From the NCBI GenBank assembly GCA_015061035.1, contig SUXK01000004.1, forward strand, positions 1 through 64,000: 64,000 bases of DNA, given 5' to 3'. This DNA is from Bacteroidales bacterium. GTDB taxonomy: Bacteria; Bacteroidota; Bacteroidia; Bacteroidales; G3-4614. Below the pieces are notes generated by a model. The model was not told the origin of the DNA. It was given only the letters and a program-made list of their open reading frames with translations, and searched no databases. This document shows, piece after piece, positions 251 to 56,744 of this stretch; positions within the stretch are counted from its first letter, which is position 1; every line of letters begins with the position of its first letter. Position numbers and translations under genes: made by a program.

Positions 251-1053
251 TATGTATTCATCTTTTTATACTCTTTTGGGGAGATTCCTGTATAGAGTTT
301 AAAGTATTTTCGGAAGGTGAACTGCTCGGGGAAGTTTAATTCTATGGATACATCTTTTATTGTTGTGTTGTTGTAACGCAACATTTTTTTTGCTTGATTT
401 ATTGTTACAAGTGCTATCCATTGTGAGGGGGTACGTCCTGATGCTTTCTTTATTATTCGGGTAAAATGGTTTGGGGAGAAGTTTAGCGCATCGGCATAGA
501 AACTTACCTCTCTGTGATTTTTATAGTTTTGAAATAGATAGAATACAAATTTTATCATTATACTCCGCTCTTTTTCATTCTTGACTGTTTCAAAATCTTG
601 CTGACGGAGAAATATTCTTGCGTACTCTAATATAGTGGTTTGCTCTAATAGTGCTATTATATTTTGCACTACTGTGTGTTGCTTTGATGATTGACTGAGG
701 GTTAACAACTCCTCTTTGTAACCATCAATCAAACTTTTGCGATATAGTAAATCGGTTTGTTCTTTTGGGGTACAAGTTGAATAAAATTTGTTTTGTTGCA
801 GGAACTCTTGTACTACATCTATGTTTACCTCGGCAATAGGAGCGAGTATATCTATCTCATCTTTGAATATGGTTACGATATTAAAGTCTTCCGACTTATG
901 TTTTACCTTTATCTGTATTAACGGTGATTTTATAATGGCATCTCCCGCTTTTAAACAACATAGTCGGTCATTTACTACCATTTCGCAACTTCCTTGTGTA
1001 CATAGGAAGAGTGCGAAATATATTTCATTATCGGGGCTTTCAAATATATCCAT
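250..1053 (-). CDS. AraC-family transcriptional regulator
   Basis: A 267-residue protein. The N-terminal ~80 residues look like a small beta-barrel (cupin-type) sensor domain. The C-terminal ~100 residues form the AraC double helix-turn-helix, with YADALNFSPNHFTRIIKKAS as the first reading helix and the usual end (FRKYFKLYTGISPKEYKKM). It is likely a cytoplasmic DNA-binding regulator. It lies divergent from the efflux operon starting at 1210, which makes that operon its most plausible target. A -7 element (TATCTTTG, minus strand, 1065-1058) sits only four bases from the annotated ATG, so the mRNA would be nearly leaderless or the true start lies further in. The effector is unknown. Confidence 0.9.
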   Translation of the reverse strand: MDIFESPDNEIYFALFLCTQGSCEMVVNDRLCCLKAGDAIIKSPLIQIKVKHKSEDFNIVTIFKDEIDILAPIAEVNIDVVQEFLQQNKFYSTCTPKEQTDLLYRKSLIDGYKEELLTLSQSSKQHTVVQNIIALLEQTTILEYARIFLRQQDFETVKNEKERSIMIKFVFYLFQNYKNHREVSFYADALNFSPNHFTRIIKKASGRTPSQWIALVTINQAKKMLRYNNTTIKDVSIELNFPEQFTFRKYFKLYTGISPKEYKKMNT

Positions 1054-1151
1054 ATAACAAAGATAAATATTTTGACTAAACTAATTACCTATTTTTAGGA
1101 GTAAAATGAGTTTTATGGTGGATTTTGCTCAATTTTTGCTAAGTATTGGCA

Positions 1152-1182
1152 TTTGTTTTATATTTGATAAGGTATATCTTTG
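1152..1182 (+). promoter_or_regulatory. Bacteroidetes-type promoter of the efflux operon
   Basis: TTTG at 1152-1155, a 19-base spacer, then TATCTTTG at 1175-1182: a full match to the -33/-7 consensus. The TTG start proposed by the ORF track (1180) lies inside the -7 box, so translation must begin downstream, at ATG 1210. Confidence 0.8.
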
Positions 1183-1209
1183 TGTTATAAATTTCAATGT
1201 AATGAAGTT

Positions 1210-2487
1210 ATGAAGCGTTTTTATCTATTATTTACACTGACTGTTTTTTCATTGTTTGTTTCTGCCCAATCTTTAGAAGAGTGCAGATCTCTTGCTAAGG
1301 AACACTACCCTGAGATAAGTCAGTATGATTTGATTAGCAAAACGGAGGAGTACAATTTATCTAATGCTACAAGGGCTTGGATTCCTCAGGTTATGTTGTC
1401 GGGACAGGCTACTTATCAGTCGGCTACTCCTACTTATCCTGATGCTTTTAAGAAGATTATGCAGAGCAACGGTATGAATATGGTTGGTATTGATAAGGAC
1501 CAATATAAAATTGCTATTGATGTTACTCAAAATATTTGGGATGGTGGTCAATCAAAAGCAAATAGGGCAATTGCAGAAGCTGAGGCTAAGGAGCAACGTA
1601 GCAGGGTTGATGTGTCGTTGTATGATTTGCAATCGAGAGTTGATGATATCTACTTTGGCATTTTACTCCTTGATGAGCGTATAGAACAGACTAATGCTTT
1701 GATTGATATGTTAGAGAGTAACCTAAATAGGATGCGTTCTTACTATAATAATGGCATTGCAATGCTGAGTGATGTTGATGCTATTGAGGCTGAATTGCTT
1801 TCGGCCAAACAGACTCTTACTCAGGTTGAGGCATCGAGAGCAAGTTACCGCCAAATGTTGGAAATCTATATTGGGCAACCTTTGAAGGATAGTATATTGA
1901 AACGCCCCGATATGTGCGAGGTTACTAATCGCACTTCTCTACGCCCTGAACTATCGCTTTTTGATGCTCAACAGAATAAATTCAAGGCTCAAAGCAAGGC
2001 TATTAATTCATCGGTTATGCCTCAATTCAGCGCTTTTGCTCAAGGGTATTATGGTTACCCCGGTATGGATATGTTCAAGAGTATGGTTTCAGATGATTGG
2101 AGTTTAAATGCTATTGTTGGTGTGCGTATGATGTGGAATATTGGAGCATTTTATACTAAGAAGAATAATACAGAGAAACTGAATATTGCTCAAAAGCAAA
2201 TTGATGTTCAACGCAATGTTTTTTTGTTTAATACTCAATTGCAAACTACCCAATATGATGGAGAGATTATTCGCTTAAACAAAGCGATTAAAGATGATGA
2301 CAGAATTGTTGAACTTAGAACGAGAGTGCGTAAGGCTGCGGAATCGCAACTTGAAAATGGGGTTATTGATGCTACTGATTTGCTTCGTAAAATTACTGAT
2401 GAAACTACTGCTATTTTAAATAGAAGCACTCATGAGATTGAACTTTTACAGGCTACATATAAACTTAAAAATACTTTAAACCAATAG
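1210..2487 (+). CDS. TolC-family outer-membrane efflux protein
   Basis: 425 residues from ATG 1210, chosen because the track start overlaps the promoter and because a clean signal peptide begins here (MKRFYLLFTLTVFSLFVSAQ). The rest has the alternating helical and strand segments of TolC-type outer-membrane factors, with two related halves (for example LSKQTLTQVEA-type coiled-coil segments around the middle). It is likely the outer-membrane exit duct of a tripartite ABC exporter. It is the first gene of a six-gene operon, with the lipoprotein adaptor starting three bases after its stop. The substrate cannot be inferred. Confidence 0.9.
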   Translation: MKRFYLLFTLTVFSLFVSAQSLEECRSLAKEHYPEISQYDLISKTEEYNLSNATRAWIPQVMLSGQATYQSATPTYPDAFKKIMQSNGMNMVGIDKDQYKIAIDVTQNIWDGGQSKANRAIAEAEAKEQRSRVDVSLYDLQSRVDDIYFGILLLDERIEQTNALIDMLESNLNRMRSYYNNGIAMLSDVDAIEAELLSAKQTLTQVEASRASYRQMLEIYIGQPLKDSILKRPDMCEVTNRTSLRPELSLFDAQQNKFKAQSKAINSSVMPQFSAFAQGYYGYPGMDMFKSMVSDDWSLNAIVGVRMMWNIGAFYTKKNNTEKLNIAQKQIDVQRNVFLFNTQLQTTQYDGEIIRLNKAIKDDDRIVELRTRVRKAAESQLENGVIDATDLLRKITDETTAILNRSTHEIELLQATYKLKNTLNQ

Positions 2488-2490
2488 GAT

Positions 2491-3375
2491 ATGAAACGAT
2501 TTGTATATATTGCCATAACATTGCTTATGGTTTCTTGTGGAGAAAAGAGTGAGTTTGATGCTCAGGGTACTTTTGAGGCTACTGAGGTTATTGTTTCTTC
2601 AGAGGCTAATGGCAGAATTATTAGTTTTAATATTGAAGAGGGTAATATGGTTGATGCCAATACTATTATTGGAACTATTGATAGTGTTCAACTTTATCTT
2701 CAACGTAAACAACTTGAGGCTCAACAATCGGCTCTTCTTGCTTCTCGCCCCGATATTAAGAAACAGGTTTCTTCATTAAAAGAGGAGATTGCTAAACAGA
2801 AGGTTGAGTTAAAACGCATAGGTAATATGCTACGTGATGGTGCGGCTACTCAAAAGCAGTATGATGATATTGAGGCTCATATTCGTATTTTAGAGGGTAA
2901 ATTGGATGCTACGCTCTCTACTCTCACAAAGAATGCTTCTACTATTGATGATAACTCTGCGGCATTAGAGGCTCAAATCTCGGCTCTTGATGATAGAATT
3001 GAGAAGTGCAAAATTGTTTCTCCTATAAATGGTACTGTTTTGGTTAAGTACGCTGAGGCTGGTGAACTTGCAACAGTTGGCAAACCACTTATGAAGGTTG
3101 CTGACCTTGAGAATATTTATCTTCGTGCATATTTTACTTCAAACCAACTTGCTGATATTAAATTGGGGGAGAGCGTTACTGTTATTGCTGACTTTGGAGA
3201 TGATAATCGTTATGAGTATGATGGCAAAATAACTTGGATCTCGGCTGAGAGTGAATTTACTCCCAAAACTATTCAAACTAAGGAGTCTCGCTCTAATTTA
3301 GTGTATGCAGTAAAGATTGCGGTTAAAAACGACGGTCGTATTAAAATTGGTCTTTCTGGCGAAGTTAAATTATAG
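2491..3375 (+). CDS. HlyD/YbhG-type periplasmic adaptor lipoprotein
   Basis: 294 residues. The N-terminus has a lipoprotein signal (ITLLMVSCGEK, acylated Cys near residue 16). Next come a lipoyl/biotinyl-like half (EATEVIVSSEANGRIISFNI), a coiled-coil hairpin at about residues 70-170, the second lipoyl half (KIVSPINGTVLVKYAEAGE) and a beta-barrel. This is the membrane-fusion architecture that bridges inner-membrane permeases and TolC. The order adaptor, ATPases, two ABC-2 permeases matches the E. coli ybhGFSR exporter. It lies between the TolC gene (3-base gap) and the first ATPase (1-base gap). Confidence 0.9.
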   Translation: MKRFVYIAITLLMVSCGEKSEFDAQGTFEATEVIVSSEANGRIISFNIEEGNMVDANTIIGTIDSVQLYLQRKQLEAQQSALLASRPDIKKQVSSLKEEIAKQKVELKRIGNMLRDGAATQKQYDDIEAHIRILEGKLDATLSTLTKNASTIDDNSAALEAQISALDDRIEKCKIVSPINGTVLVKYAEAGELATVGKPLMKVADLENIYLRAYFTSNQLADIKLGESVTVIADFGDDNRYEYDGKITWISAESEFTPKTIQTKESRSNLVYAVKIAVKNDGRIKIGLSGEVKL

Positions 3376-3376
3376 T

Positions 3377-4276
3377 ATGAATGCAATAGAGGTTGATAAT
3401 CTTAGTAAGAGTTACGGCAAAGTTGATGCCTTAAAAGGGGTGTCATTTGAGGTGCGAAAGGGTGAACTTTTTGGCCTTATAGGACCTGATGGTGCTGGTA
3501 AGACTACTCTGTTCCGTTTACTTACCACATTGCTCAATCCCGATTCGGGAAGTGCAAAGGTGGAGGGTTGCGATATTGTAAAAGATTATCTTTCTATACG
3601 TTCGAGAATTGGTTATATGCCTGGTAGGTTCTCGCTATACAGCGACTTGTCAGTTGAAGAGAATCTAAATTTTTTTGCTGCTATATTTGGTGTTACAATA
3701 GAGGAGTCGTACGATTTGGTTGCTCCTATATATAAACATATCGAACCTTTTAAGAGACGTAAAGCAGGAAAGTTATCGGGAGGTATGAAACAGAAACTTG
3801 CTCTCTCTTGTGCTTTAATTCATCGCCCAAGTGTTTTATTCCTTGACGAACCTACAACGGGAGTGGATGCTGTATCGCGTAGCGAGTTTTGGGATATGCT
3901 TTCGGATTTAAAATTGAAAGGTATTACTATTCTTGTTTCTACTCCTTACATGGATGAGGCAAACCGTTGCGACCGTATTGCTCTTTGTAACGAAGGCTCT
4001 ATTTTAAGCATTGATACACCCGAAAAAATTGTTCAAAGTTTTGATTCAAAACTATATGGTGTTAAAGCAAAAAATATGTTTGCTCTTTTAGAGAGTAGTC
4101 GTAAATTCAGTGGGGTTGTTAATTGCTATCCTTTTGGAGAGTGGCACCATATTGTTATTGATAAGGATTTTGATATAGAAGCATTTAAAAAGGAGAATTG
4201 CCTTATTGAAGGTTTTGAGATTAAGAGTGTTGATGCCTCTATTGAAGATGTATTCATTAAATTGATGAAAAAATGA
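3377..4276 (+). CDS. ABC transporter ATP-binding protein (YbhF N-terminal-half type)
   Basis: 299 residues from ATG 3377, one base after the adaptor's stop; the track start at 3317 lies inside the adaptor gene. Walker A is GPDGAGKTT, the signature is LSGGMKQK and Walker B with D-loop is VLFLDEPTTGVD, all intact. GPDGAGKTT is typical of the first half of YbhF. A C-terminal extension of about 80 residues follows the ATPase core. Its last four bases overlap the next gene's start (ATGA), indicating translational coupling. It powers the two permeases downstream. Confidence 0.92.
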   Translation: MNAIEVDNLSKSYGKVDALKGVSFEVRKGELFGLIGPDGAGKTTLFRLLTTLLNPDSGSAKVEGCDIVKDYLSIRSRIGYMPGRFSLYSDLSVEENLNFFAAIFGVTIEESYDLVAPIYKHIEPFKRRKAGKLSGGMKQKLALSCALIHRPSVLFLDEPTTGVDAVSRSEFWDMLSDLKLKGITILVSTPYMDEANRCDRIALCNEGSILSIDTPEKIVQSFDSKLYGVKAKNMFALLESSRKFSGVVNCYPFGEWHHIVIDKDFDIEAFKKENCLIEGFEIKSVDASIEDVFIKLMKK

Positions 4277-5013
4277 ACGATATAGTTATTTCTGTTAAAA
4301 ATCTTACTAAACGATTTGGCAACTTTACTGCCGTTGATAACATATCGTTTGATGTGAAGAGAGGAGAAATTTTTGGTTTTCTTGGTGCTAATGGTGCTGG
4401 TAAAACTACCGCTATGCGTATGTTGTGCGGTTTGAGTTATCCCACTTCGGGCAGTGGCTGTGTTGCTGGTTTTGATGTTATGCACGAAGGCGAAATGATT
4501 AAAAGGCATATTGGTTATATGAGCCAACGTTTCTCGCTCTATAACGACCTTACTGTTTGGGAGAATATGCGTCTGTTTGCAGGAATCTATGGAATGACAA
4601 AAAAGGATACTGAAGCGAGAGCGACTGAGTTACTCACGCAACTAAACTTTTTGTCAGAGAGGGATACCCTTGTAGGTTCTCTACCTTTGGGGTGGAAACA
4701 GAAGTTATCGTTTGTTATTGCTACTATTCATTCGCCTGAGGTGGTTTTCTTAGATGAACCTACGGGTGGTGTTGACCCTATTACCAGACGTCAATTTTGG
4801 GAACTTATATATAAGGCAGCCGAAAGTGGTACTACTATTTTTGTTACCACACACTATATGGATGAGGCGGAGTATTGTTCGAGAGTTTCAATTATGGTGG
4901 ATGGCGAGGTACGTGCTTTGGACACCCCTGCACGCCTTAAACAAGAGTATGGTGTTGAGTCGATGGATGAGGTTTTTCGTATTTTGGCTCGCAAAGCAAA
5001 GAGAGGAGAGTAA
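4273..5013 (+). CDS. ABC transporter ATP-binding protein (YbhF C-terminal-half type)
   Basis: 246 residues. Walker A (GANGAGKTT) and Walker B (VVFLDEPTGGVD) are intact, but the ABC signature is degenerate (LPLGWKQK in place of LSGGQ). In E. coli YbhF two nucleotide-binding domains are fused in one chain; here they are two overlapping genes, giving an asymmetric ATPase pair. The altered signature suggests that one of the two ATP sites is weak or structural. The permease gene starts four bases after the stop. Confidence 0.92.
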   Translation: MNDIVISVKNLTKRFGNFTAVDNISFDVKRGEIFGFLGANGAGKTTAMRMLCGLSYPTSGSGCVAGFDVMHEGEMIKRHIGYMSQRFSLYNDLTVWENMRLFAGIYGMTKKDTEARATELLTQLNFLSERDTLVGSLPLGWKQKLSFVIATIHSPEVVFLDEPTGGVDPITRRQFWELIYKAAESGTTIFVTTHYMDEAEYCSRVSIMVDGEVRALDTPARLKQEYGVESMDEVFRILARKAKRGE

Positions 5014-5017
5014 TTAA

Positions 5018-6112
5018 ATGAAAGGCAATTTTATTTCATTCGTTAAAAAAGAGTCGCTACATATTCTGCGAGATAAGCGTACAATGTTAATTGTTATGCT
5101 AATCCCTGTTGTGCTTATGATTCTTTTTGGTTTTGCAATTTCTACAGAAGTGAACAATATTCGTGTGGCTGTTGTGGCACCTGAACGTACTGACGGAATA
5201 AGAGATGCTGTTGAAAAAATTTCGCAAAATAGTTATTTTACTTTTTGCGGATATATAAATAATGATGACGTTGATAATAAGTTACGTACAAATGAGGTTA
5301 GTGCTGTTATTGTATTTGCATCGGATTATGACAGACGTGTTGCTCTTGCCTCAGAGGGTGTTCCCTCAAAGCCCGTTATTCAGTTGATTGTTGATGCCTC
5401 AAATGTTAATAGTGCTGGTGCGGCTACTGCTTACTTACAGAATATATTATTGGGGAGGGAATCGCAACAATCAATGTTTGAAACACGTATGTTATTTAAC
5501 CCTCAGATGAAGAGTGCCTATAATTTTGTTCCCGGTATTATGGGGCTTATCTTTATTCTTGTTTGTGCAATGATGACCTCTGTTTCAATTGTTCGAGAAA
5601 AGGAGATGGGTTCTATGGAGGTTTTACTTGTTTCTCCCGTTAGACCTGTTAAGATTATTTTTGCCAAGATGATTCCCTATTTTGCTATTTCGTGTATTGT
5701 TCTTATAACAATTCTAATGTTGGCTCATTATCTGTTAGAGGTTCCTATGACGGGGGGTGTTGGGGGTATTCTATCAATTTCGATATTATATTTGATTCTT
5801 TCACTTGCTCTTGGATTATTAGTATCTACTATTGCAAAGACTCAGGTTGTTGCTCTATTGATTTCGGCAATGGTTTTGATGATGCCTATTATGATGCTTT
5901 CAGGACTACTATTCCCTATTGAAAATCTCCCTAAGTTTTTTCAGGTAGTATCGAATATAGTTCCTGCTCGTTGGTATATTGATGCAGTGCGTAAAATGAT
6001 GATTCAAGGTGAATCTATTACCGCAGTTTGGCAAAATTGTGCTATTCTTTTTGGTATGACTGTTGCCCTACTTGATATCTCGTTGAAAAAGTTTAATGAT
6101 AAACTCGAATAG
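5018..6112 (+). CDS. ABC-2 type permease (YbhS-like)
   Basis: 364 residues with the ABC-2 exporter layout: one N-terminal membrane helix (about residues 22-42, LIVMLIPVVLMILFGFAIST), a large extracytoplasmic domain to about residue 170, then five membrane helices. The segment EKEMGSMEVLLVSPVRP after the second helix is the typical ABC-2 signature loop. It probably pairs with the next permease to form the inner-membrane channel of the exporter. The ends of the two permease genes overlap or nearly touch. Confidence 0.9.
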   Translation: MKGNFISFVKKESLHILRDKRTMLIVMLIPVVLMILFGFAISTEVNNIRVAVVAPERTDGIRDAVEKISQNSYFTFCGYINNDDVDNKLRTNEVSAVIVFASDYDRRVALASEGVPSKPVIQLIVDASNVNSAGAATAYLQNILLGRESQQSMFETRMLFNPQMKSAYNFVPGIMGLIFILVCAMMTSVSIVREKEMGSMEVLLVSPVRPVKIIFAKMIPYFAISCIVLITILMLAHYLLEVPMTGGVGGILSISILYLILSLALGLLVSTIAKTQVVALLISAMVLMMPIMMLSGLLFPIENLPKFFQVVSNIVPARWYIDAVRKMMIQGESITAVWQNCAILFGMTVALLDISLKKFNDKLE

Positions 6113-6116
6113 ATTT

Positions 6117-7220
6117 ATGCGTACGTTTATTGTATTACTTCAAAAAGAGTTCTTGCAGATTCGCCGCAACTCGTTTCTGCCAAAATTGATTATTGCATTT
6201 CCTATAATGCTAATGCTAATTATGCCTCTTATTATGACAATGGATGTGCGTAATGTTAATGTTGCTATTGTGGATATGGATTGTTCTTCTGTTTCACGCA
6301 GGATTGCTTCTCATATTGAGGCTTCGGACTATTTTTCTCTGAAACAAACGTCCTCTGAATACCCTCTTGCTTTGAGTGCTTTGGAAGAGGGAGATATTGA
6401 TGTTATTGTTCAGATTCCTAAAGATTTTGAACGTAATATGACGACCTCCTATCAAGAAAGAATTAGCATTACTGCTAATGCTGTTAATGCCACAAAGGGT
6501 AGTATGGGTATGCAATACGTTATTCAGACTATTGCATCATCACTAAAAGAGGTCAAAAGCGAGAATAGTGCGATTGCTACATCAGAATTAATTACTATTG
6601 AGAATAGATATAATCCTACGCTTAATTATAGGCACTATATGATTCCTGCTCTAATGATTATTATATTTATTCTTATTTGCGGATTTCTTCCTGCATTGAG
6701 TATTGTTGGAGAGAAAGAGAGCGGAACTATTGAACAGATTAATGTTACTCCTGTTTCGAGATTTAGTTTTATTCTTTCAAAACTTCTGCCTTACTGGATT
6801 ATAGGTTTGTTTGTGGTTACTATTGCTATGATTATTGCCCGATTGGTTTATGGTCTCGCCCCAATAGGCTCGGTTGGTACAATTTATTTGGGAGCATTGC
6901 TCTTTATATTAACTATATCAGGGTTAAGCCTAACGGTTGCTAATTTTTCAGAGACTATGCAACAGACTATTTTTGTTATGTTCTTTATTATTATGGTTAA
7001 TATGCTTATGAGCGGTTTGCTTACGCCTATTGACTCAATGCCTGAATGGGCTCAGAACTTTACTCTGATATTACCTCCAAGATTCTTTATTGAGATTCTT
7101 CGCTCGGTTTATCTTAAAGGTACAACAATTACAGAGTTATGGAACAACTTTGTGGCACTCGGCTTATTTGCTATTATATTTAACTCTCTTGCTGCTATTA
7201 CTTATAAAAAGCAGAGTTAA
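6117..7220 (+). CDS. ABC-2 type permease (YbhR-like)
   Basis: 367 residues from ATG 6117, four bases after the previous stop; an alternative in-frame ATG at 6096 would overlap the upstream gene by 17 bases. It has the same fold as its neighbour: an N-terminal helix (LIIAFPIMLMLIMPLIMT), an extracytoplasmic domain, the loop EKESGTIEQINVTPVSR and five C-terminal helices. It is the last gene of the efflux operon. A new promoter (7278-7308) begins about 60 bases after its stop. Confidence 0.9.
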   Translation: MRTFIVLLQKEFLQIRRNSFLPKLIIAFPIMLMLIMPLIMTMDVRNVNVAIVDMDCSSVSRRIASHIEASDYFSLKQTSSEYPLALSALEEGDIDVIVQIPKDFERNMTTSYQERISITANAVNATKGSMGMQYVIQTIASSLKEVKSENSAIATSELITIENRYNPTLNYRHYMIPALMIIIFILICGFLPALSIVGEKESGTIEQINVTPVSRFSFILSKLLPYWIIGLFVVTIAMIIARLVYGLAPIGSVGTIYLGALLFILTISGLSLTVANFSETMQQTIFVMFFIIMVNMLMSGLLTPIDSMPEWAQNFTLILPPRFFIEILRSVYLKGTTITELWNNFVALGLFAIIFNSLAAITYKKQS

Positions 7221-7277
7221 GTTAAGGTTAAATAAGGGATAAAATAGAAAGCCCAAAGGTCATAAAGGGGAAAAGGT

Positions 7278-7308
7278 TTTGTTATTTAAAACTTTTTTAA
7301 TAGTTTTG
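7278..7308 (+). promoter_or_regulatory. Promoter of the 7.4-kb RNA/small-protein unit
   Basis: TTTG at 7278-7281, exactly 19 bases, then TAGTTTTG at 7301-7308, matching the Bacteroidetes consensus. Transcription would start near 7315, more than 350 bases before the next protein gene (7683), so it makes either a separate RNA or a very long leader. A second, weaker -7-like match (TAAATTTG, 7365-7372) lies downstream. Confidence 0.65.
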
Positions 7309-7420
7309 CATATAGATTATGGTGTTACATAAAATGGATACCACAAACATATTACTAATTAAAATAAATTTGCCTATGAAACATTAGCGTATAGTTAGTA
7401 CGCACATTTTAGATATTTTG

Positions 7421-7595
7421 GAAAAAGCGTTTTAGCATTTATTCTTCTGCTCATAAAGTTTGGCGACTTAAAAGAAAAGATTGAATAATAGTTAAGATGC
7501 TCGTGCTATATTGGTACGGGCTTTTAGTTATTCATCTTTTCGGGTTACGCCAAACACCTATGAGCAGGAATACTAAGAGTTCCGTGCTTTTTTTA
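7421..7595 (+). ncRNA. Long-hairpin structured RNA candidate (6S-like shape)
   Basis: About 175 bases fold into one continuous rod. AAAAAGC (7422-7428) can pair with GCTTTTT (7586-7592). After a large open bubble, TTCTGCTCATA (7445-7455) pairs with 7559-7569, GTTTGGCG (7458-7465) with CGCCAAAC (7548-7555), AAAAGAT/GAATAA with TTATTC/ATCTTTT, and GCTCGTGC with GTACGGGC at the tip. The right arm ends in seven T residues, as a terminator would. A closing stem, a large central bubble and a long apical stem are the outline of 6S RNA, but I see no conserved 6S sequence, so the class is unassigned. It could instead be the leader of the 7683 gene. Confidence 0.55.
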
Positions 7596-7682
7596 TGTGC
7601 GTAATTGAAATTGTAATCGGAACAAGGAGGAAACCGAAAAGCCGATAAGTGAGTAGGAAATATTTATTTTAATTTAAAGATT

Positions 7683-8042
7683 ATGAAAAAGATTATATTG
7701 ATTATTGTAGCTGTATTCACTTTTACAATTACTAAAGCAACATATACCTCAGACTCTGCTACAAATTACACAAATAGCGAAACATATGCAGACGCACCCA
7801 CTTACTGGAGTGGTTGGGCTTCTGATCATATAGCTTGTCCTGATATGGAAATATTCATAAAGGTATACAATTCTCCAAATTCGTGTAATTCTTATTATGC
7901 AGTGGCATCACAAGTAAAAAAGTATAGCCTAAATAGAGTAACTAAACAATACGATATAAATGAGACATTAGTTGTAAAAGAAAGAAATGATGGAGAATAT
8001 TATGTTACCTATAATGGTAAAAATTTATTTTTCAGAATGTAA
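7683..8042 (+). CDS. Small secreted protein of unknown function
   Basis: 119 residues; not recognised. A signal peptide is clear (MKKIILIIVAVFTFTITKA), followed by about 100 residues rich in Tyr, Asn and Ser with two Cys (around residues 59 and 71) that could form a disulphide. No membrane segment follows, so it is probably periplasmic or released. No good -7 box lies between the upstream RNA candidate and the ATG, so it may be read from the promoter at 7278-7308. A strong terminator hairpin (8100-8134) ends the unit. Confidence 0.65.
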   Translation: MKKIILIIVAVFTFTITKATYTSDSATNYTNSETYADAPTYWSGWASDHIACPDMEIFIKVYNSPNSCNSYYAVASQVKKYSLNRVTKQYDINETLVVKERNDGEYYVTYNGKNLFFRM

Positions 8043-8099
8043 TCATTTTAGGAGGAAAAACAATGTGAATATACAAACGTATGTGAGCAAAATAAAAGA

Positions 8100-8134
8100 G
8101 AAGGAGTATCAAAATACTCCTTCTCCCTATTTTA
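8100..8134 (+). terminator. Terminator of the small secreted protein unit
   Basis: GAAGGAGTAT (8101-8110), loop CAAA, ATACTCCTTC (8115-8124), a perfect 10-bp stem followed by CCCTATTTT. Placed 60 bases after the stop of the 7683 gene. Confidence 0.75.
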
Positions 8135-8172
8135 AAAAGTTTGATAGTTGAGATAAGTTTTGGGATTTGTGC
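8133..8172. repeat. 40-bp direct repeat, copy 1
   Basis: TTAAAAAGTTTGATAGTTGA and the following 20 bases recur exactly at 8275-8314. Each copy directly follows a hairpin (8100-8124 and 8229-8254), so hairpin plus repeat looks like a duplicated module. It is followed by TTAGTTGTTAG-type intergenic sequence. Confidence 0.85.
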
Positions 8173-8228
8173 TTTTTAAAGTTGTTAGTTGTTAGTTTTT
8201 TGTTGTTAGAAACTTATATTATAAAATA

Positions 8229-8254
8229 AGCGGAAATCCAAATGGACTTCCGCT
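8229..8254 (-). terminator. Hairpin between the direct repeats
   Basis: AGCGGAA-A-TCC, loop AAAT, GGA-C-TTCCGCT: ten base pairs with one mismatch. Read on the minus strand it is followed by TATTTTATAA, so it may contribute to stopping transcription from pgk; on the plus strand the tail is less T-rich. Confidence 0.5.
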
Positions 8255-8274
8255 CTATCTTAAAGGTTTATATC

Positions 8275-8314
8275 TTAAAAAGTTTGATAGTTGAGATAAG
8301 TTTTGGGATTTGTG
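8275..8314. repeat. 40-bp direct repeat, copy 2
   Basis: Exact copy of 8133-8172, 142 bases further on. A third hairpin (AGGCGGA 8333-8339 with TCCGCCT 8354-8360) follows it. Confidence 0.85.
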
Positions 8315-8394
8315 TAGATTTTTTAATATTAAAGGCGGAAAACCTATTGATTCTCCGCCTTATATCAAGCTTTATTAGAAAGGTTTAGATACAA

Positions 8395-8462
8395 CTAACT
8401 TGGTGGAGAAAACGACGGGAGCATACTGACGTATGTGACCGAGTTTGATTCCTACAAGTTAG
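8395..8462. other. Long hairpin with tandem G-A internal loops downstream of pgk
   Basis: CTAACTTG (8395-8402) pairs with CAAGTTAG (8455-8462). Inside it, GGA/TCC, AAAC/GTTT, CGG/CCG and GCATAC/GTATGT pair in register, separated by small internal loops, one of which is symmetric GA/GA (8419-8420 opposite 8437-8438). The tip is the tetraloop TGAC. No T-run follows on either strand, so a simple terminator is unlikely. It lies 30 bases from the pgk stop and could be a 3'-UTR element or a processed RNA. Confidence 0.55.
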
Positions 8463-8492
8463 GAAGTAGATGAGCCTTTATAATGAAGCGAC

Positions 8493-54767: not shown

Positions 54768-56384
54768 TTATAAAATAACCTTTTGTGAGTTATTGTCGGT
54801 TACAACTATATAAACACCTTTTGGAAGGTTTAACTTAACCGAGCCATTGACAACAACATTCTTTATAACTTGTCCTGAGAGGTTTACGATACGAAGTGTT
54901 CCATAATATTTATTTACTTCAATACCATCACCTACCATAATCTTAATTTCTGCTTTTGAAATTCCAACATCTTCAATACCAGAAAGGTCTGTCTCCACTA
55001 TATTTGCGAACTCACTCCAACCTCCAGTTGTTTCGTATGTTGATTTTGCTCCTTTAGGAACATATAGGGTACAGTTTGTTTTATCAACTCCCAAAAATTC
55101 ATAACTGCCTACCTCAAAGAGTTTTTCCGCAGGGATTAATGATGTTATACTTGTTAGACCTTCACAATATAAAAATGCGAACACTCCAATACTTGTTACA
55201 CTTTGAGGAATGGTTACACTGGTTAATTTAGTACATCCTGTGAATGCAAACATCCCTATACTTGTTACGTTACAAGGAATTACAGAATTATTACAAGTAG
55301 CGATCAAAGTATTTGTAGCCGTCTCTATTATTGCATTACAATCTTCTCGACTATCGTAATAACTATTTTCGGGAGCAACTGTTATTGTTGCTAAAACTTT
55401 ACAACCTTCAAATAAGGTAGAGCCTATACTTGTTACACTACTGGGTATTTCAATACTTGTTAGAGTTTCGCACCATGAGAATGCCGATGCTCCTATAGTT
55501 GTTACTCTATTGGGAATAGTAACACTTGATAGTTTGTAACAATATGAAAATGCAGACCGACCTATAGTTATAACACTATTCGGGATGGTTACACTGGTCA
55601 GTTTATAACATTCTTCAAATGCATTATCACCTATTATTGTAACACCCTCAGGTATTTCAATTGTTTTTAAATCACAATAATAGAATGCACTATTCCCAAT
55701 ACGGGAAACATTCTTACCAATATTTACAATAGCAAGATCCGAACAATTATTGAAAGTACCATCTTCAACAGCAGTAAGACCTGTGCCTATTGTTACACTT
55801 TTTAATTTTAAACACATAGCAAATACATATCCACCCATACTTGTAACACTATTGGGTATGGTTATGCTTGTTAAATTTTGACAACTATAAAATGCTTGAA
55901 AGCCTATAGTTGTTACACCATTACCAATAACAGCACTTGTTAGACCTGTGCAGCCAGAAAATGCATTATCTCCTATAGTTGTTACACTATTTGGTATTTC
56001 AATACTTGTTAAACTTGTGCAATTAGAAAATGCATAACGTCCTATATAAGAGACACTATTGGGTATTTCAACACTTGTTAGACTTGTGCAATTAGAAAAT
56101 GCATCTTCTCCTATACTTGTTACACTATTAGGTATTTCAATGGTTGCAAGTCCAGTACAATCTGAAAATGCTCCATATCCTATATCTGTAACAATATAAG
56201 CAATATCTTCATAAATGACTGTTTCAGGAATTATAATATTTCCTGCACAATCACTTCCCGAAACCTCTACTGCTATGTCGCCAATGATACGATAATATAT
56301 ACCATCAACCTCAAAATCACTTGCATTAAGTATTGGGCTACATAGTAACAATAAATAGATAAACATGTGTTTTAGTCTTTTCAT
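54768..56384 (-). CDS. BspA-like leucine-rich-repeat surface protein with T9SS tail
   Basis: 538 residues: signal peptide (MFIYLLLLCSPILNAS), about 14 LRR_5 (BspA/TpLRR) repeats of 23 residues (consensus near SVTTIGDNAFSGCTGLTSV), then a ~75-residue T9SS sorting domain (TLRIVNLSGQVIKNVV to KVIL). Related proteins bind fibronectin and other bacteria in oral Bacteroidetes; the ligand here is unknown. The repeats are nearly identical at DNA level in places, which allows copy-number change. A 290-nt structured RNA ending in a terminator (56442-56735) lies between its promoter and the ATG. Confidence 0.93.
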   Translation of the reverse strand: MKRLKHMFIYLLLLCSPILNASDFEVDGIYYRIIGDIAVEVSGSDCAGNIIIPETVIYEDIAYIVTDIGYGAFSDCTGLATIEIPNSVTSIGEDAFSNCTSLTSVEIPNSVSYIGRYAFSNCTSLTSIEIPNSVTTIGDNAFSGCTGLTSAVIGNGVTTIGFQAFYSCQNLTSITIPNSVTSMGGYVFAMCLKLKSVTIGTGLTAVEDGTFNNCSDLAIVNIGKNVSRIGNSAFYYCDLKTIEIPEGVTIIGDNAFEECYKLTSVTIPNSVITIGRSAFSYCYKLSSVTIPNRVTTIGASAFSWCETLTSIEIPSSVTSIGSTLFEGCKVLATITVAPENSYYDSREDCNAIIETATNTLIATCNNSVIPCNVTSIGMFAFTGCTKLTSVTIPQSVTSIGVFAFLYCEGLTSITSLIPAEKLFEVGSYEFLGVDKTNCTLYVPKGAKSTYETTGGWSEFANIVETDLSGIEDVGISKAEIKIMVGDGIEVNKYYGTLRIVNLSGQVIKNVVVNGSVKLNLPKGVYIVVTDNNSQKVIL

Positions 56385-56441
56385 ATCTTTTCTTTTATTT
56401 AAATTGCCTTTCGTCCCCCAAAAGACTTAAACAATAAGAAT

Positions 56442-56735
56442 AAAAAAAGCGTGGGAACCATACTGTTACTCGTCCCACGACATGAGGCCTTCGCATTGCC
56501 CATCAATGTTGAACGAGCAACGCAGAAGCCCACGCAGATATGCAATGGAGTATATATACATTATACTCCTATATTTACACACCAACAGGCATCTACAATT
56601 GCTTCATCCTTGACATTGATTTTAGAAGTTGCGAAGTTCCATGTCGTCAAGATTGAGCGTAAGTAAACGCTTTTTATTTTATGTCTGCACCCTACCCACA
56701 CAACCCATATAGGGCTTCTGCAAGCGATATGCTTT
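56442..56735 (-). ncRNA. Structured leader or stand-alone RNA ahead of the BspA-like gene
   Basis: Minus strand. GCAGAAGCCC (56721-56712) pairs perfectly with GGGCTTCTGC (56531-56522), enclosing GCAGAC/ATCTGC, an AGCGT hairpin (56671-56656), CTTGAC/GTCAAG (56651-56609) and GGAGTATA/TATACTCC (56569-56547). Downstream, GTTGCTCGT pairs with ACGAGTAAC. GCGTGGG (56535-56529) pairs with CCCACGC (56455-56449), followed by T7: a terminator. The GGG at 56531-56529 is used by both the closing stem and the terminator, so only one can form fully. I find no match in memory to tmRNA, RNase P, SRP RNA or known riboswitches. Confidence 0.65.
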
Positions 56736-56736
56736 G

Positions 56737-56744
56737 CAAAGATA
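56737..56744 (-). promoter_or_regulatory. -7 element of the structured RNA
   Basis: Minus-strand TATCTTTG; start of transcription would be near 56730, just before the closing stem. No clear -33 box, and no second promoter between the RNA's terminator and the BspA-like ATG. Confidence 0.65.

Follow-up and report, generated by a model that had tools for sequence, protein, structure and literature searches.

The window, that is, the whole 64,000-nucleotide stretch of DNA that was analysed, carries at 7.3–7.7 kb a promoter, a rod-like RNA that runs into a U tract, and, behind them, the gene of a 119-aa protein. The features of this locus were as follows.

7278–7308 (+): Bacteroidetes-type promoter, TTTG – 19 nt – TAGTTTTG, a full match to the −33/−7 consensus; boxes TTTG at 7278–7281 and TAGTTTTG at 7301–7308
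7376–7387 (+): putative mini-ORF ATG AAA CAT TAG inside the conserved TTTGCCTATGAAACATTAG motif, with an early-stop excess over shuffles
7398–7407 (+): 5′ strand of P1, GTACGCACAT, partner 7595–7604; a local hairpin 7387–7403 is also possible
7420–7428 (+): 5′ strand of H1, GGAAAAAGC, partner GCUUUUUUU at 7586–7594
7447–7455 (+): 5′ strand of H2, partner 7559–7567
7458–7465 (+): loop of the 5′ side hairpin, GUUUGGCG, kissing partner CGCCAAAC at 7548–7555
7470–7488 (+): 5′ strands of H3 (7470–7475 and 7483–7488), partners 7535–7540 and 7528–7533
7499–7521 (+): apical hairpin GCUCGUGCU/GGUACGGGC, with compensatory changes
7514–7519 (+): 3′ strand of the apical hairpin, GUACGG, also complementary to CCGUGC at 7582–7587 directly before U7
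7548–7555 (+): loop of the 3′ side hairpin (GGU...ACC), CGCCAAAC, kissing partner 7458–7465
7579–7583 (+): 5′ strand of P3, GUUCC, partner GGAAC at 7619–7623 across U7
7588–7594 (+): U7 tract, putative attenuation site; a U-run is kept by almost every one of 57 diverse members
7595–7604 (+): 3′ strand of P1, AUGUGCGUAA, right after U7, partner 7398–7407
7619–7623 (+): 3′ strand of P3, GGAAC, partner 7579–7583
7624–7659 (+): candidate DUF805b RNA (RF02914) module between the leader and the start codon; 35.5 bits (gathering cut-off 35.6), E 1.9e-8
7683–8042 (+): gene of a 119-aa protein with a signal-like N-terminus and no Pfam family, the ORF behind the leader

The original prediction had described a perfect promoter, a 175-base rod with a large central bubble and a terminal T7, and a small secreted protein behind it. 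The promoter was confirmed by its full consensus match and by the 94–98% conservation of its site in two related genomes; in the 64-kb window, the −33/−7 pattern occurred 9 times, compared with 3.05 expected. Transcription was predicted to start downstream of it, at approximately 7313–7316. Across the members of the family described below, the promoter boxes peaked 40–120 nt upstream of H1. Because of this distance, and because the TAnnTTTG match in the conserved TTTGCC motif was not kept across copies, a promoter within that motif was dropped.

The rod proved real as well. The segment 7416–7602 folded at −66.9 kcal/mol, compared with −38.6 ± 3.8 kcal/mol for shuffled sequences (z = −7.5; 0 of 200 shuffles reached this value), and the rod itself spans 7420–7594, with the T7 present as U7 at its end. 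The ORF behind it agreed with a small secreted product in its size and signal-like start. The large central bubble did not hold up: the single-sequence fold had no open bubble of the 6S type, and comparison of members gave a central junction with two side hairpins. Moreover, the functional unit exceeds the rod, as 7398–7407 pairs with 7595–7604 (P1) and GUUCC pairs with GGAAC across U7 (P3).

A covarying RNA family in Bacteroidales

A plain DNA search, carried out first, gave further copies in the source genome and some match in 12 of 60 genomes, and the full copies preceded different genes. A covariance model (R1) placed the family in 104 of 393 Bacteroidales genomes, and a second model (R2), built from 88 diverse members, placed it in ~44% of the sampled Bacteroidales genomes (173 of 392) and in 100 of 204 genera. 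With R2, approximately 18 copies were counted in the source genome, which is 86% complete, and 27, the maximum, in one relative. Outside Bacteroidales, matches were few and weak: when R1 was run on 396 genomes drawn from the whole phylum, only 16 matched, the source genome included. The exact-pattern matches with names were MAGs, mostly of Bacteroidaceae, Rikenellaceae, Paludibacteraceae, Prevotella, and Muribaculaceae, many of them from ruminant gut. A search of related genomes had been proposed at the outset; in these, the structure recurred before same-strand ORFs, and its pairing was conserved by compensatory changes.

No Rfam 15 family matched the rod, either in the 7.3–7.7 kb copy or in 20 relatives. 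A literature search that covered neither Weinberg's survey of 2017 nor Wehner 2014 found no description of the structure. Fremin and Bhatt 2021 (PMC8040213) lists thousands of candidate structured RNAs, some of them in Bacteroidetes, an example being HMP2_4205 (132 bp, palindromic, and terminator-like), and overlap with the leader family is possible. We regard the family as new relative to Rfam 15 and the searched literature; large motif lists such as this one could contain fragments of it. Rfam has no entry for a covarying kissing-loop leader of ~175 nt that is spread this widely among the sampled Bacteroidales and reaches 27 copies in a single genome.

In the alignment, the basal helix H1 (AAAAAGCG/CGCUUUUUUU) is followed by the outer helix H2, the 5′ side hairpin, the inner helix H3, the apical hairpin (GCUCACGC/GCGUGGGC), and the 3′ side hairpin. 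The 5′ side hairpin takes the form AAGU...ACUU or GAAA...UUUC, and the 3′ side hairpin GGU...ACC or GGC...GCC. Their loops are complementary over 6–8 nt despite wholly different loop sequences among members, with types such as CUGGUA/UACCAG, CUUCGAC/GUCGAAG, and UUUGGCG/CGCCAAA. Drawn by eye on the alignment rather than by a pseudoknot-capable prediction, the core appears to be a four-way junction with two side hairpins whose complementary loops would kiss.

The alignment of 88 members (A4) contained double changes in 47 of 51 pairs, with 813 double-change cells compared with 225 ± 15 after shuffling, and 93% of its cells were paired, compared with ~45% when the alignment was slid. Since A4 was fitted to the covariance model, two checks matter here: a structure-blind MAFFT alignment of 24 members, which gave the same covariation outcome, and a segment permutation in 57 members of <70% identity, with the segment borders taken from the model alignment. 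The permutation z was −30 for H2, −24 for H3, −20 for the kissing helix, and −13 for the apical hairpin; beyond the rod core, it was −8.2 for the alternative pairing between the apical strand and the bases before U7, −7.7 for P3, and −3.4 for P1. H1 was paired in 97% of cells and nearly invariant (z = −0.6), too invariant to be testable by covariation. In the MAFFT alignment, 9 of 9 pairs of H2 had compensatory changes and the pairs of H3 (helices 6 and 7) were supported, while the apical hairpin had compensatory changes in both the 24- and the 88-member alignments. All 8 pairs of the kissing helix were compensatory among the 88 members, with G-U almost absent. Support for P1 was modest, with both sides changed in 4 of 10 pairs in the 24-member set (A2). 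P3 occurred as GUUCC/GGAAC, GUACC/GGUAC, and GUCCC/GGGAC in different members. At the level of aligned sequences, conserved RNA pairing is proven by this covariation.

The window holds a second, diverged copy, with the following features.

54768–56384 (−): gene of a 538-aa exported BspA-type leucine-rich-repeat protein, behind the second copy
56441–56677 (−): second copy
56675–56668 (−): AAAAAGCG (A5GCG) of the second copy, read from the sequence
56737–56744 (−): −7 promoter box TATCTTTG of the second copy, read from the sequence

This copy was matched by R2 with 61.5 bits (E 1e-10) and was absent from the building set of both models, R1 and R2. Its kissing loops are CUUCGCA/UGCGAAG; GCGUGGG at 56535–56529 faces CCCACGC at 56455–56449, followed by U7 and then by GGGGGAC at 56419–56413, all on the reverse strand. 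It is an independent copy with all the parts of the leader.

Genes behind the leader and their exchange

A same-strand ORF lay downstream in 89 of 92 members, at a median of 77 nt past the element. First ORFs were called signal-like when a positive N-terminus was joined by a hydrophobic stretch, a simple criterion under which 66 of 86 look exported, compared with 15 of 48 window ORFs taken as the background. Among 78 downstream products searched with Pfam, Por_Secre_tail was found in 6 and LRR_5 (BspA LRR) in 5; WG repeats were also matched, and GmrSD, a C5 DNA methylase, and RmuC are examples of families matched once.

Leaders 93–98% identical to each other preceded unrelated genes elsewhere. 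At the 7.3-kb locus, one related genome (G005) had 94–100% identity in the upstream region, with 90% immediately ahead of the promoter, and ~95% through the promoter and the 5′ domain; identity was then 58–78% in most of the rod, an unrelated ORF followed, and ~99% identity was found in pgk. Two other genomes (G001 and G004) carried the leader at the same locus with two further unrelated ORFs behind it. As near-identical leaders precede unrelated genes and ORFs are swapped at the locus, leader and gene are not inherited together as a unit. A multicopy family with a freely exchanged downstream gene goes beyond what the first reading of this DNA had seen. Comparison has established the helices and the complementarity of the loops, the location of the leader just before same-strand ORFs of mostly exported proteins, and the fact that leader and gene are exchanged independently of each other.

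The region 7683–8490 is a hypervariable gene slot, with four unrelated ORFs between the conserved leader and pgk in four related genomes. The efflux/ABC transporter operon upstream (338–7233) is present in G005 and absent here in G001 and G004. Behind the gene, a 44-nt direct repeat (98%) lies at 8128–8171 and 8271–8314, with short pieces at other genome sites. These repeats were rejected as the 3′ border of a cassette, since the pieces occur at many genome sites and are untied to the leader.

In several Flavobacteriaceae (L127, L128, L131, L133, L137, and L138), the element stands beside a small, oppositely oriented gene; three of those tested encode a Cro/C1-type HTH, and one had no Pfam match. 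Small HTH genes are also found behind the element in L083 and L120. The downstream gene of L127 encodes a CarboxypepD_reg domain, as in SusC-like receptors.

Proposed function and alternative readings

Two functions had been suggested for the rod, the 6S RNA of this lineage and a regulatory leader of the 7683 gene. The leader resembles 6S (RF00013) and Bacteroidales-1 (RF01693), which we take to be the 6S RNA of Bacteroidales, in its rod-like shape and its own strong promoter, but it matches neither model, is multicopy and gene-linked, and has a junction instead of an open central bubble. The RF00013 model search that had been suggested gave no match in the window or the genome. A 6S RNA elsewhere in the genome had been named as evidence against this function, and by that criterion Bacteroidales-1 at C10:106367 (146 bits), on another contig of the source genome, refutes it in part. 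The leader is not a single housekeeping gene, as a 6S RNA would be, given this second RNA and ~18 copies that typically stand before genes. A Bacteroides 6S RNA has been reported, without an Rfam id (PMC7366714). The leader is almost certainly not the 6S RNA of its lineage. The other suggestion stood in its cis part, where the conserved same-strand position and the covariation make a structured cis-leader family very probable; we infer that the leader likely regulates the gene behind it.

Judged from the sequences, the pairings around U7 appear mutually exclusive, a usual sign of a switch. The 3′ strand of the apical hairpin can also pair with the bases before U7 (GCGUGGG/CCCACGC in the family, GUACGG/CCGUGC at 7.3–7.7 kb), and this pairing was present in 97% of cells among 24 members and reached in 0 of 5000 permutations; the 5′ strand was not complementary to the same bases (z = +2.3, 57 members). 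When forced in the window copy in isolation, the alternative was 16 kcal/mol less stable than the free fold and would therefore need a kinetic or ligand effect. A terminator-like alternative would also disrupt H2/H3 or form a pseudoknot, and for both reasons the default fold is not one that attenuates at U7. A pattern scan called no intrinsic terminator at U7, where a short GC-rich hairpin directly before the U tract would arise from the alternative long-range pairing alone; a canonical terminator was thus rejected, and the alternative pairing was retained as a proposal only.

The best overall explanation, and the one we moderately favour, would be a new cis-acting 5′ leader RNA family that probably works as a conditional attenuator at U7; attenuation at this site is itself proposed tentatively. 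The strong promoter would start an mRNA whose first ~300 nt comprise a tiny ORF and then the ~175-nt rod-like RNA, with its four-way junction locked by the two kissing side hairpins and closed by the A-rich/U7 basal helix. The apical 3′ strand would have two possible partners, its own 5′ strand, which leaves the rod intact, and the strand before U7, which gives an intrinsic-terminator-like form; after U7 has been passed, P3 would compete for the same pre-U7 bases. The share of transcripts passing U7 would most likely be set through the stability of the junction, raised or lowered by a cellular signal or a bound protein. With unrelated genes behind the leaders, this signal would more probably be a general physiological cue than a pathway product.

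AdoCbl and purine riboswitch leaders have multi-way junctions and kissing loops. The leader family is like them in its 5′ position, its junction with kissing loops, and its apparently mutually exclusive pairings ahead of a U tract, but differs in having no matching Rfam model, mutually unrelated genes without a ligand hint, and ~18 copies per genome. We consider it conceivable, if rather speculative, that it forms an undescribed riboswitch-like class, among the most copied, which would bring many unrelated genes for surface proteins in gut Bacteroidales under the control of a single general signal and offer a fixed regulatory port for gene exchange. As many genes behind the leaders encode T9SS-sorted, LRR, or other exported proteins, the leader may connect remodelling of the cell surface in gut bacteria with a general signal.

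The mini-ORF bears on a different, translation-coupled reading. The ATGs that precede the rod in 92 members were scored for a stop within 6 codons and compared with shuffles; the early-stop fraction was 0.88 compared with 0.46 for members with GCCTATG and 0.78 compared with 0.51 for those without it. Since the members have a common ancestry and no mini-ORF is present in 23 of the 46 without GCCTATG, this excess is suggestive only. The leader ORF of tetQ in Bacteroides is very short. A tetQ-type leader-peptide attenuator likewise has a very short ORF in a structured leader, but the conserved RNA of the leader family is much larger, the genes are many and unrelated, and the mini-ORF is not universal. 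Ribosomes on the mini-ORF (AUG AAA CAU UAG), which abuts the P1 strand, might melt the adjacent hairpin or P1 and so choose the downstream fold, as in the translational attenuator control of tetQ (PMC5418344). The early-stop excess in both subgroups favours this, but early stops could simply exclude ribosomes from the rod, and such coupling would leave most of the conserved structure unexplained; we consider it unlikely.

The unrelated genes and the very stable fold would also suit a non-switching 5′ structure of constant effect, one that protects or stabilises exported-protein mRNAs or docks an RNA-binding protein. The kissing loops, P3, and the exclusive apical/pre-U7 pairing exceed the needs of a protective hairpin, and this reading has only a small chance of being right. 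If transcripts ended at U7, the ~280-nt product could act elsewhere as a small RNA with an incidental downstream gene, a reading that draws on the own promoter, on U7, and on some Flavobacteriaceae in which at least ~220 nt separate the element from the start of the ORF. It is quite improbable in view of the same-strand ORF 24–136 nt downstream in most members and of up to 27 copies per genome, which point to a cis role. Exchange at the DNA level, or a mobile element to which the RNA fold is secondary, would account for near-identical leaders with unrelated genes behind them and for rod and gene replaced between 94–100% identical flanks; but the order of promoter, leader, and start codon is preserved, no recombinase gene or terminal repeats were recognised, and we think this very improbable. 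A phage or plasmid element was rejected, as no match was found; the viral scan comprised one exact genus-type pattern only, which matched no viral contig.

The DUF805b module downstream

DUF805 and DUF805b (RF03081 and RF02914) are Rfam cis-regulatory motifs, and DUF805b directly follows the leader here and in several copies; in L074, both follow it. Unlike the leader, they measure 35–68 nt, cover only the post-leader module and not the rod, and occur without the leader too. In the source genome, DUF805b was found at 7 places, partly without a rod leader, the sites other than 7624–7659 being G000:C3:158269, C3:165059, C3:14304, C5:99730, C4:294418, and C9:242277. Where it co-occurred with the rod, it lay between the rod and the start codon or before the second gene. 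This places a known Rfam motif, in several copies, inside a larger leader. GAGTAGG was found downstream of 15 of 45 leaders with GCCTATG, compared with 1 of 47 without it. Since GCCUAU and the GUAGGC of DUF805b are complementary, a long-range pairing of 7372–7377 with 7651–7658 is possible.
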